Positions 54,917 to 59,165 of a stretch of 64,000 bases of DNA are shown piece by piece. The notes below the pieces were generated by a model, which worked only from the letters and a program-made list of their open reading frames with translations, was not told the DNA's origin and made no database searches. Made by a program: the position numbers and the translations under genes. The first letter of the stretch is position 1; each line of letters begins with the position of its first letter. The stretch is from Halobellus clavatus (lineage in GTDB: Archaea > Halobacteriota > Halobacteria > Halobacteriales > Haloferacaceae). The stretch covers positions 1 through 64,000 of the forward strand of contig NZ_FNPB01000013.1 in the NCBI RefSeq assembly GCF_900107195.1. The letters run 5' to 3'.

Positions 54917-56440
54917 TTATTTTACGGTCGGTTGCGGGCGATCAGCAGCCCGTGGATATTCCTCCAGGAGCGCTTCAGCGGCGTGTTCGCCGCTGATGAG
55001 ACACATCGGCATCCCGATGCCCGGTGCGGTGTAGGCGCCGGCGTAAAAGAGTCCGTCCAGTCCGGCCCGGTGAGCCGGCCGGAACGGCCCGGTCTGTGAG
55101 AGCGTGTGCGCCAGTCCCATCGCCGACCCGCGCGGATCGTCGTACCGCGCCGCGAAGTCGCTGACGCAGGCCGCCTCCTCGACGACGATCCGATCGCGGA
55201 GGTCGACCCCGGTGGTCGCTGCGAGATCGTCGAGTATCGTGTCGCGAACGCGCTCGCGGATCTCCGGCCCGTCGTCGAGTCCGGGAGCGATGGGGACGAG
55301 AACGACGACGGCGTGATGCCCGTCGGGCGCGACGTCGTCGTCGGTCTGAGAGGTCACAGAGAGGTAATAGGCCGGATCGTCCGGCCAGCGCGGTTCCTCG
55401 AAGATGGCCTCGAAGTGGTCGTCCCAGTCGGTGGGGAAGACGAGCGTGTGGTGCGCAAGCGGGTCGACATCGCCCTCGACGCCGAGATACAGGAGGTACG
55501 CCGAGGGCGCGTAGGTCCGCGACTCCCAGTAGTCGGCGTCGTGCGACCGGGCCGTCGGCGGGAGTAACTCCCGCTCCGTGTAGGCCGGGTTCGCGTTGCT
55601 GACGACGAGTTCGGACTCGCAGGGGCCCGCGTCCGTCTGGAGCACGAAGTCGCCGGCGGCGCCCGTGATCGCCTGGACCTCGACTCCGGTCTCGATCTCG
55701 ACCCCCTGCTCTCGCGCGAGGTCGGCGAGGCCGTCGACCACGCCCGCGATGCCGCCCCCGGGGTAGAACACGTTCAGGTTCAGATCGACGTGGCTCATAA
55801 TGCTGTACAGCGCCGGCGTGTTGTGCGGTGAGCCACCTAAGAAAACGAGCGTGTATTCGAGGAGTTGCCGCAGTTTCGGGTGCTCGACGTACCGGGAGAC
55901 GTAGTCGTCCATCGTGCCGAACAGCCGGATTCGGGGAGCCAGCGGGAGCAGGTCGGGATCCACGAAGTCGCGGAGGCGCTCGCGGCGCTCGTAGACGACC
56001 CGGTCCATCGCCAGTTCGTAGTTTCGTTCGGCCCGGTCGAGATACGTCCGGAGTGCCTCGCCTGCGCCGGACTCGTAGGACTCGAACACCTCGTGAACGT
56101 TCTCGCGGTTCGGGCGGATCGTCACCCGGTCGCCGTCCTTCCAGAAGACGCGATACTGCGGATCCAGCCGTTCCAGGTCGTAGTAGTCTGTCGGGTCGCT
56201 GTCGAAGTGCCCGAAGAAGCGCTCGAAGGCGTCCGGCATCAGATACCAGGAGGGCCCGGTGTCGAACCGGAACCCCTCGCGTTCCAGGACGCCGGCGTGC
56301 CCGCCGAGGTGATCGTGCTGTTCGAGGAGTCGCACGTCGGCCCCGTTCGCAGCGAGGTACGCGGCCGCCGAGAGCCCCCCGAACCCGCCGCCGACGACGG
56401 TGATCGTCGCATCCGCTGGAAGCCGATCAGACGGTGCCAT
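54917..56440 (-). CDS. CrtI-family carotenoid desaturase/oxidoreductase
   Basis: A 507-residue FAD enzyme of the phytoene desaturase family. The FAD-binding fold is TVVGGGFGGLSAAAYLAANG; HLGGHAGVLEREGFRFDTGPS and the C-terminal DGLFYAGAYTAPGIGMPMCL are CrtI signatures. It could be phytoene desaturase or a haloarchaeal carotenoid 3,4-desaturase; I cannot distinguish these by eye. It is divergent from the Brp-like gene with only about 100 nt between starts, so both may be co-regulated in carotenoid or retinal metabolism. Confidence 0.9.
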   Translation of the reverse strand: MAPSDRLPADATITVVGGGFGGLSAAAYLAANGADVRLLEQHDHLGGHAGVLEREGFRFDTGPSWYLMPDAFERFFGHFDSDPTDYYDLERLDPQYRVFWKDGDRVTIRPNRENVHEVFESYESGAGEALRTYLDRAERNYELAMDRVVYERRERLRDFVDPDLLPLAPRIRLFGTMDDYVSRYVEHPKLRQLLEYTLVFLGGSPHNTPALYSIMSHVDLNLNVFYPGGGIAGVVDGLADLAREQGVEIETGVEVQAITGAAGDFVLQTDAGPCESELVVSNANPAYTERELLPPTARSHDADYWESRTYAPSAYLLYLGVEGDVDPLAHHTLVFPTDWDDHFEAIFEEPRWPDDPAYYLSVTSQTDDDVAPDGHHAVVVLVPIAPGLDDGPEIRERVRDTILDDLAATTGVDLRDRIVVEEAACVSDFAARYDDPRGSAMGLAHTLSQTGPFRPAHRAGLDGLFYAGAYTAPGIGMPMCLISGEHAAEALLEEYPRAADRPQPTVK

Positions 56441-56541
56441 ACCCGATTCAACGGACGCGACCGCCTTCGGCCTCACCGCGGTTCCCAGTCACTTGGATTC
56501 TCGTCGGTCGTTTATGTGTGGTACATCCTAACGATTCCACG

Positions 56542-57606
56542 ATGAGCGCGATCGGACTCGGTGCGGTGCGTCGACGGCTGGTGTACAGTGACGCACACCC
56601 CTCGCTCGGCCTCTCCCGGGCCGCGCTCTTCGTATTGCTCGTCGGGTTTGCGGCAACGACCGCGGCCGGCGTGACGATCCCGTTCAGAGCCCAGATGGTC
56701 GTCTACCTGGTGGGGATGGTGGCGCTGAACCTCCCGCACGGCGGCTACGAGCACTTCGAGAACCTTCGCCGGCGACGGCCGTCGTTCCGCTGGCGGTACG
56801 TCGCCGTCTATCTGGCTGTCGTCGCGGGGTTCGTCGCCCTCCTGCTCGCGGCCCCGGTCGCCGGCGTGGCGCTCGCTATCGGCGTCGCGATGGCGAAAGG
56901 TGGCCTCGGCGGGCTGAAAGTCCTCGAGGCGACGTCCGGCACGGAGCACCTCGAGACGCGAACGCAGCGCTTCCTGGCGATTGCCGTCCGAGGGGGAGCC
57001 GTGATGCTCGTCCCGTTAGTGTTCCATCCGGACACCTTCCACACGTTCAGCTCGCTGATGGTCGGGCTGGTCGAATCCGGGGCGCTCGAACCGTACGCCG
57101 CGCACTTCGAGACCACCCGGATGCTCGCCGCGGGGGGATACGGACTCGCGTTGGCGGCCCACGTGGGCCTCGGGTACGTCCGTGGCGGGGGTCGGTCGTG
57201 GCTGATCGACGCCGGGGAGAGCCTGCTGCTGGCGGCGTACTTCGCCGTCGTGCCGGTGCTTGTGGCGGTCGGTCTCTACTTCCCGTTCTGGTACTCGGCC
57301 CGCCAGGTGGCCCGGACGGTGACCGTCGACGACGACGCCGTTGGGGACGCCGAGTGGGACATCGTCGGCGGGGCGTCCGCATCACGGGTGGCGCTGCGGG
57401 CGTGGGCCATCCTCGTCGCCGGGGCGTTCGCGACCTTCGCCGTGCTGGGGGCGGTCTACTGGGCCGTCCCGAATCCGCTGGCGAACGCCGGGATCCTCCC
57501 GGGAGCGGTGGCCTTTTGGAGCGTCTTCATCAGCGTCATCGCACTCCCGCACGTCGTCGTCGGGTCGGTCCTCGACACCGAGCGGGGCATCTGGTATGTG
57601 CCCTGA
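56542..57606 (+). CDS. Brp/Blh-like membrane protein lacking two conserved His
   Basis: A 354-residue membrane protein with about eight helices, resembling beta-carotene 15,15'-dioxygenase (Brp/Blh) that makes retinal. The first motif NLPHGGYEH (His66, His71) and GTEHLETR (His136) are present. The later HSxRH-type motif, whose two His are predicted iron ligands in Blh, reads WYSARQ here, with Tyr251 and Gln255. So retinal formation is doubtful. It lies divergently next to a CrtI-like gene; TTTATG about 30 nt upstream is a likely TATA element. No rhodopsin gene is in the window. Confidence 0.82.
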   Translation: MSAIGLGAVRRRLVYSDAHPSLGLSRAALFVLLVGFAATTAAGVTIPFRAQMVVYLVGMVALNLPHGGYEHFENLRRRRPSFRWRYVAVYLAVVAGFVALLLAAPVAGVALAIGVAMAKGGLGGLKVLEATSGTEHLETRTQRFLAIAVRGGAVMLVPLVFHPDTFHTFSSLMVGLVESGALEPYAAHFETTRMLAAGGYGLALAAHVGLGYVRGGGRSWLIDAGESLLLAAYFAVVPVLVAVGLYFPFWYSARQVARTVTVDDDAVGDAEWDIVGGASASRVALRAWAILVAGAFATFAVLGAVYWAVPNPLANAGILPGAVAFWSVFISVIALPHVVVGSVLDTERGIWYVP

Positions 57607-57672: not shown

Positions 57673-58299
57673 GTGTCCGATCCCCCGGCTATCGACGCTG
57701 CGCCCTGGACGCAAACCGAGGAGTGGACAGAGACGGCGTTCCAGAACCGCTTCGTCACCGTCGAGGCGACGAACGCCGTCTACGAGGACCCCGAGTTCCT
57801 CGATGCCGTCGAGGAACTCGTCCCCACAGGCATCGATCAGACGCCGCGGGCGATGTTCACCACCGGCCTCGCCTTCGACCCGCCCCCGCCGGGAGACAAG
57901 ACCCCCGAGCGCCTGCTCCCGATCGCGGCGAAGTACGCCAGCCGCGAGTTCGAGCGGAGTCTCGCCGAGGACGGCCTCCGGAACGTCCGACAGGCCGACT
58001 CACAGGACCTGCGGCTCCGCGGCCGCCGGACGGCGAGTGCCTTCCAGTACGACGCCGACTACCCGCTCGACGGCGCGGCGGTCGGCAGGCCGGACGCGAC
58101 GCCAACGCTCGCCGTGCGCGTGTGGGCCGCCATCTGGCCGACCGCGGATTCCTTCGAGATGGCCGGTGGAATCTACCCGCTGGAGGACCTCGAAGCGGCG
58201 GTCGAACGCGTCGACGGCACGACCGACGTGACCATCGAGGCCCGCCCCGGTGGCGACAGACGGGTCGTCTTAGACCGGATCAGGGACGCCGCGAGATAG
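57673..58299 (+). CDS. Haloarchaeal conserved protein, unknown function
   Basis: The 208-residue protein from GTG 57673 has an N-terminal region with many aromatic and acidic residues (WTQTEEWTETAFQNRFV), a proline-rich turn (AFDPPPPGDKTPERLL) and a mixed alpha/beta C-terminal part (LAVRVWAAIWPTADSFEMAGGIYPLED). No signal peptide or catalytic motif is visible, and no family is recalled with confidence. It follows the Brp-like gene by 66 nt in the same direction, so co-transcription is possible. Confidence 0.72.
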   Translation: MSDPPAIDAAPWTQTEEWTETAFQNRFVTVEATNAVYEDPEFLDAVEELVPTGIDQTPRAMFTTGLAFDPPPPGDKTPERLLPIAAKYASREFERSLAEDGLRNVRQADSQDLRLRGRRTASAFQYDADYPLDGAAVGRPDATPTLAVRVWAAIWPTADSFEMAGGIYPLEDLEAAVERVDGTTDVTIEARPGGDRRVVLDRIRDAAR

Positions 58300-58397: not shown

Positions 58398-59165
58398 TTA
58401 CGCCCCCGTCGTCGACTCGGCGTCGGAGTCGCTGTTGTCGTCGGTGCCGCTGTCGTCGTCGGTGTCGGCAGGTCCATCGCCCGCATCGTCCCGCGAGTCG
58501 CCGTCACCGGCCTCGCTGCCGCCGTCGTCGTGCATCGCCTCGTCGATCTCCTGACTGACGGTCTCCTCGACGGTCTCGGTGACTTCTTCGGTGACCTCCT
58601 CAGTCACCGTCTCACCGACCTTCTCGGCGACCTGATCGACTTCCTCGCTCACGGTGTCTTCGACCGTCTTTTCGACTTCTTCACTCACCGTCTCGCCCAC
58701 TGTCTTTTCGACTTCCTCGCTCACCGTCTCACCGACCGTCTTCTCCACCTCTTCGCTCACCGTCTCACCCACCGTCTTTTCCACCTCTTCGCTCACCGTC
58801 TCACCGACCGTCTTTTCCACCTCTTCGCTCACCGTCTCGCCGACCGTCTTCTCGACTTCCTCACTCACTGTCTCGCCGACCGTCTTTTCGACTTCCTCAC
58901 TCACCGTCTCGCCGACCGTCTTTTCGACCTCCTCGGTCACCGTCTCGCCCACGGTATCCTCGATCTTCTCGGCCACCTCTCGCGTCATCCAGTCGGGGTC
59001 GAACCGGGACATCTTCCACCCGATGTGGATGATGTACGAGAGCAGTACGCCCAGACCGAACGCGATCCCGACGGCCGTCTCGACGAGGAGAATGAGGCCG
59101 ATCGCGATGAAGATCGTGATCCCGTACGCGAGATCGACAATGAAGTCGGCGCGGGCCGGCGTCAT
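58398..59165 (-). CDS. Membrane protein with eight 12-residue coiled-coil repeats
   Basis: The 255-residue protein begins with two membrane helices (about 6-47, IVDLAYGITIFIAIGLILLV and GIAFGLGVLLSYIIHIGW), a short WMTREVAEKIE linker, and then eight consecutive copies of VGETVSEEVEKT (the first with T for S), followed by degenerate related units to about residue 190 and a disordered acidic tail. The pattern of hydrophobic V/T every 3-4 residues gives a long amphipathic helix or coiled coil projecting into the cytoplasm or outside. No family is recognised. Confidence 0.8.
   Translation of the reverse strand: MTPARADFIVDLAYGITIFIAIGLILLVETAVGIAFGLGVLLSYIIHIGWKMSRFDPDWMTREVAEKIEDTVGETVTEEVEKTVGETVSEEVEKTVGETVSEEVEKTVGETVSEEVEKTVGETVSEEVEKTVGETVSEEVEKTVGETVSEEVEKTVGETVSEEVEKTVEDTVSEEVDQVAEKVGETVTEEVTEEVTETVEETVSQEIDEAMHDDGGSEAGDGDSRDDAGDGPADTDDDSGTDDNSDSDAESTTGA
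58644..58967. repeat. 36-bp coding tandem repeats
   Basis: Units start every 36 bp (for example the CACCGTCTC core recurs near 58684, 58720, 58756, 58792, 58828, 58864, 58900 and 58936). Copies differ at synonymous positions and at a few bases, so they have existed for some time; the coding frame is kept throughout. The period resembles CRISPR repeat length, but there are no unique spacers. Confidence 0.88.

Follow-up and report, generated by a model that had tools for sequence, protein, structure and literature searches.

The locus described here raises the question of what a protein of the Brp/Blh family does when most of the residues thought to bind its iron have been replaced. The ligands published for Blh are His21, His78, His188 and His192, as given in the portion of PMC10991881 that cites Kim et al. 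2009. The window (the whole stretch of 64,000 nucleotides that was analysed, from a 3.75-Mb haloarchaeal genome) encodes a protein that the first-pass annotation had recognised as a Brp/Blh homologue, and profile scores bear this out, with 242.6 bits against PF15461 (cut-off 28, whole domain) and 231.7 bits against TIGR03753 (cut-off 95.25). The CrtI-like enzyme noticed beside it is encoded by a divergent crtI/crtD gene, the counterpart of d1086 in Haloarcula japonica (Table 1).

At the four Blh ligand columns the window protein has His66, Lys119, Tyr251 and Gln255, in the family alignment and in the profile-profile alignment alike, and it thus lacks the Blh-type set of histidines at all four proposed iron ligand columns. 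The first-pass annotation had taken His66 and His136 for the retained histidine motifs, with Tyr251 and Gln255 in place of the HxxxH pair. His66, within LPHGGYEH, is indeed at the first-ligand column, and Tyr251 and Gln255 do occupy the HxxxH columns; alignment with haloarchaeal Brp and Blh placed no His pair elsewhere, and a misalignment of HxxxH was ruled out by the two independent alignments. The second motif was misassigned, however: the segment AMAK119GGLGG aligns onto TWFH145WGQGD of the four-His type in both alignments, so that the true column holds Lys119. The first and second ligands are 57 residues apart in the published Blh, 56-58 in four-His proteins and 57 in most bacterial rows; in the Brp clade, 53 residues separate the first column from the Lys, and His66 and His136 are 70 apart. 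His136 was ruled out as the second ligand by alignment register and spacing. The third and fourth ligands are 4 apart in the published Blh and in the four-His columns alike, and Asp92 of the four-His first motif corresponds to Glu70. In sum, Blh has four His and an Asp where Brp has His, Lys, Tyr and Gln and a Glu. The proposed loss of two ligands is correct for the HxxxH pair, but the count is three with Lys119, and the loss extends over the whole clade.

Table 1 Features of the brp locus in the window and the residues discussed in the text
Feature	Position	Strand	Description and basis
brp orthologue, 354 aa	56542..57606	+	intact ORF; multi-helix membrane protein, Brp/Blh family
crtI/crtD, bifunctional phytoene desaturase/3,4-desaturase	54917..56476	-	NF058655, 705 bits; divergent from brp
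Motif PHGGYEH, Pro65 to His71, with His66 and Glu70	56734..56754	+	alignment; Blh equivalent is PHGAVDH
Lys119 codon, second-ligand column (His78 in Blh 66A03)	56896..56898	+	alignment, spacing, profile-profile alignment
His136 codon, not a ligand column; conserved in Brp (106/107)	56947..56949	+	alignment
Tyr251 codon, third-ligand column	57292..57294	+	alignment
Gln255 codon, fourth-ligand column	57304..57306	+	alignment
His337 codon (LPH), the only His invariant in both clades (107/107 and 81/81)	57550..57552	+	alignment

Family members were collected from 118 related genomes, and 100 were aligned. The four-His type, with PHGA(V/I/L)D, HWG, WHxxRH and LPH or APH, accounts for 68 of them, and the other 32 share the PHGGYEH, AKGG, WYSxRQ and LPH of the window protein with minor variants. 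When the haloarchaeal set was extended with named genomes and bacteria, the Lys/Tyr/Gln trio was present in 107 of 109 non-identical Brp-type relatives (Lys/Tyr/Gly in the other two) and His/His/His in 81 sequences; two very distant, poorly aligned bacterial rows have His/His/Asn or Ser, and five further rows are incompletely aligned. Where the motif set was complete, no Brp- or Blh-type sequence was an intermediate with one or two replacements. Lys119, Tyr251, Glu70, Arg150, His337 and Asp345 are invariant in all 107 Lys/Tyr/Gln sequences. Synonymous codons vary at the tallied invariant positions, with Lys and Tyr each using both of theirs, which indicates that the replacement is held by purifying constraint and did not arise by chance. 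If a bare motif loss in one sequence were all there was, it could reflect a decaying duplicate or histidines misaligned and lying elsewhere. Such decay or artefact is scarcely credible here and is refuted by the clade-wide invariance of the replacements together with the synonymous variation; moreover, the ORF is intact, synteny is conserved and the independent profile alignment agrees on the register. The window protein had been presented as a lone homologue with lost residues, and it is instead one of a conserved and widely distributed subfamily, of which the Brp of Halobacterium salinarum is also a member.

The Lys/Tyr/Gln proteins formed one clade apart from the four-His proteins (SH-aLRT 100, tree of 100 sequences), and the clade was recovered again with a support of 100 when the motif columns were left out and bacterial Blh served as the outgroup. 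The Bacteroidota Blh proteins that we found are of the four-His type, and this state is probably ancestral, judging from such bacterial sequences. Within Brp, His66 is replaced by Tyr in three Natronomonas-type loci (LPYGGYEH), which leaves none of the four proposed ligands. Four Salinibacteraceae loci (Salinivenus and others) have a Lys/Tyr/Gln Brp beside crtI, plus a four-His Blh; the nesting of these Brp sequences inside the haloarchaeal clade suggests a transfer from haloarchaea.

This clade is Brp, because it contains a gene of H. salinarum DSM 3754 (L162:634-1713) that has a 4-bp overlap with a gene for a 674-aa Bat-like protein and is matched exactly by both the forward and the reverse NRC-1 brp primers of PMC3160355. 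The blh primer of the same study matches the H. salinarum four-His gene beside CrtY, and these two are the only family genes in that species, one of each type. The blh expression primer (NRC-1) begins inside the gene at L214:1480-2835 (-), at the Met that precedes PHGA. The Blh expressed in E. coli therefore lacked its N-terminal stretch and was still reported to be active (PMC3160355).

The window gene is the orthologue of H. salinarum brp and thus an ordinary brp. The two proteins are 55% identical over 319 aa, belong to the same clade, and have in common LPHGGYEH, AKGG, WYSxRQ, ALPHVVVG and the RGIWYVP end; linkage to rhodopsin genes is likewise found within the clade. They differ in their surroundings, as brp overlaps bat near bop in H. 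salinarum, whereas the window brp has the divergent crtI/crtD as its neighbour and neither opsin nor bat adjoining it. No upstream site above chance was found before the window brp with a Bat-type consensus. The window arrangement resembles that of c1158/d1086 in Haloarcula japonica, where the d1086 primer exactly matches a crtI with a Lys/Tyr/Gln brp divergent to it (74% identity). These genes have been proposed for retinal synthesis as a "retinal cluster" (PMC11946383); in the accessible portion of that paper, the role rests on homology and position, and the ligand replacement is unmentioned.

In beta-carotene-producing E. coli, NRC-1 brp yielded 0.8 mg/L of retinal and blh 2.2 mg/L, and none was formed with neither gene (PMC3160355). 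Deletion of brp led to accumulation of beta-carotene and loss of retinal, according to the passage of PMC2253796 that cites Peck et al. 2001, and blh is described as able to perform the same function as brp in the lines of PMC1447603 on those deletions. In view of the alignment, these data are most simply read as retinal formation by Brp without a four-His site. The first-pass annotation had suggested a new role, such as carotenoid binding or action without oxygen cleavage, and this is disfavoured by the retinal formed by an orthologue 55% identical to the window protein and by the loss of retinal upon brp deletion. Retinal production, named there as evidence against the idea, is on record for the H. 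salinarum orthologue and not for the window protein.

Overall, we consider it probable, though well short of certain, that the window gene is a rhodopsin-linked paralogue of Blh, most likely forming retinal from beta-carotene, with a rebuilt centre that is not of the four-His kind. Brp would form retinal within the membrane, close to where opsin is made, and the window protein itself most likely cleaves beta-carotene, as reported for its H. salinarum orthologue. Its centre would differ from the four-His iron site proposed for Blh, as the whole subfamily has Glu70, Lys119, Tyr251 and Gln255 at these positions; His337, Asp345 and Arg150 are retained. On the simplest reading, cleavage proceeds without the four-His site, and the residues replacing it may supply another ligand set (candidates are Glu70, Tyr251, Gln255 and His337) or a centre without iron. 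Several points speak against this explanation: the E. coli result comes from a single experiment that included neither site mutants nor purified protein; Blh is present in nearly every Brp genome, as expected for a Blh-dependent partner; even His66 is lost in the three Natronomonas-type loci; and the structural evidence (below) is limited by a less confident model of the Brp motif loop and by the lack of a solved homologue.

A Brp-type gene was present in 111 of 391 genomes of the class, with a second family match in 110 of these, and a four-His Blh was identified in 31 of 32 fully read Brp genomes. Among the genomes tested, rhodopsin genes were detected in all 33 with Brp, in 29 of 33 with Blh only and in none of 10 without a family member. 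At least one of opsin, Bat and CrtI lies near brp at 59 of 71 loci (in the window it is crtI/crtD), with crtI near 45, bat near 23 and opsin near at least 13, the opsins being a lower bound from a simple pattern. Blh adjoins crtY instead, which was found near 59 of 63 blh loci. The first-pass annotation had raised the search for a second, intact family copy, and we found exactly one other member in the window genome, an intact four-His Blh at C17:78679-79524 beside a lycopene cyclase-domain (CrtY-type) gene, with an opsin at C17:76738-77412. The crtY of this genome is thus beside the C17 copy and not beside the window brp, which lacks the linkage typical of Blh genes. A second CrtI/CrtD copy, on C18, precedes a prenyltransferase, as in the bacterioruberin cluster.

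One Brp genome, G081, has a run of genes that are transducer-like, sensory rhodopsin-like, brp and bat-like (the frame of the bat-like gene is split), and it has crtI. Its Brp has Gln at the position of His66 and Asn at that of His71. Neither another family member nor a match to CrtY turned up in its assembly of 120 contigs, in which absence is not proven.

These patterns leave some room for a Brp that is a non-catalytic partner of Blh, binding beta-carotene or retinal, stabilising Blh, or handing retinal to nascent opsin; its four-His site would have decayed once Blh did the catalysis, and Lys119, Glu70, Tyr251 and Gln255 would have become fixed for binding. We regard this, the chief alternative, as possible but doubtful. 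It is consistent with the replacement of three ligand columns in every Brp member and of the fourth in the Natronomonas type, with a second family member in 110 of the 111 Brp genomes, with the linkage of brp to opsin and bat and not to crtY, and with the one Brp-only genome, G081, where brp is beside a sensory rhodopsin and no CrtY was matched. Transport or binding had also been envisaged initially, as PMC7734400 notes. In liquid culture, however, Peck's blh deletion strain of 2001 reportedly had near-normal retinal, and the brp blh double deletion is said to have abolished it. In addition, brp alone gave retinal in E. coli, a host without Blh (PMC3160355).

It is unlikely that Brp catalyses a different reaction of the same pathway, cleaving another carotenoid or apocarotenoid or isomerising a carotenoid or retinal, with the trace cleavage of beta-carotene as a side activity. 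The coherently different active-site columns could be read in this way, as could the proximity of crtI to brp at 45 of 71 loci and the brp, opsin and crtI of G081 in the absence of a detectable crtY. On the other hand, the rise of beta-carotene and the fall of retinal upon brp deletion, as related in the passage of PMC2253796 mentioned above, fit beta-carotene as the substrate, and direct evidence of another reaction was not found.

Brp and Blh (the four-His beta-carotene 15,15'-dioxygenase, including the marine 66A03 protein and the C17 copy) belong to the same family in profile-profile comparison (hhalign probability 100, E 1.8e-50) and have a similar helical layout and helix order, with AlphaFold pLDDT of 84.1 for Brp and 89.6 for Blh. 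Confidence at the motif loop is lower in the Brp model (65 and 71 for the blocks at 61-80) than in the Blh model (81 and 90 at 81-100). The top viral structure match is the same ChoanoV1 protein for both (E 0.22 and probability 0.96 for Brp, E 0.15 and 0.99 for Blh) and is suggestive only; no relative with a solved structure was detected by sequence or fold search. In a further and very improbable scenario, Lys119 would lie buried at the position of the Blh iron, bind retinal (whether produced by Brp or by Blh) as a Schiff base, and deliver it to opsin. Brp would then be a retinal chaperone or transferase dedicated to a microbial rhodopsin, and the first of its kind.

Brp and Blh have been treated as interchangeable, and the replaced residues separate them cleanly: the founding member of the family is without three of the four ligands that underlie the accepted iron model. 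It follows that the family's iron site has been wrongly assigned, that carotenoid cleavage can run on a different centre, or that Brp serves rhodopsins in another way. The finding also bears on annotation (the "retinal cluster" of Haloarcula japonica, for example) and on the choice of enzyme for retinal production. We found no description of the subfamily-wide loss of three proposed ligands in the searchable literature, which is mostly without subscription journals. The conflict of Brp as a whole with the four-His iron model appears to be undescribed, a provisional judgement since a remark on it in Kim 2009 is possible.

Two further genes follow brp in the window. The one directly 3' of it, at 57673-58299 (+), encodes a 208-aa protein of no known family that adjoins brp elsewhere only at the corresponding locus of a sister genome. 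The next, at 58398-59165 (-), encodes a protein with an apparent hydrophobic stretch close to its N-terminus and about nine tandem 12-aa repeats (VGETVSEEVEKT); the underlying DNA is a tandem array of 36-bp units at 58636-58949.
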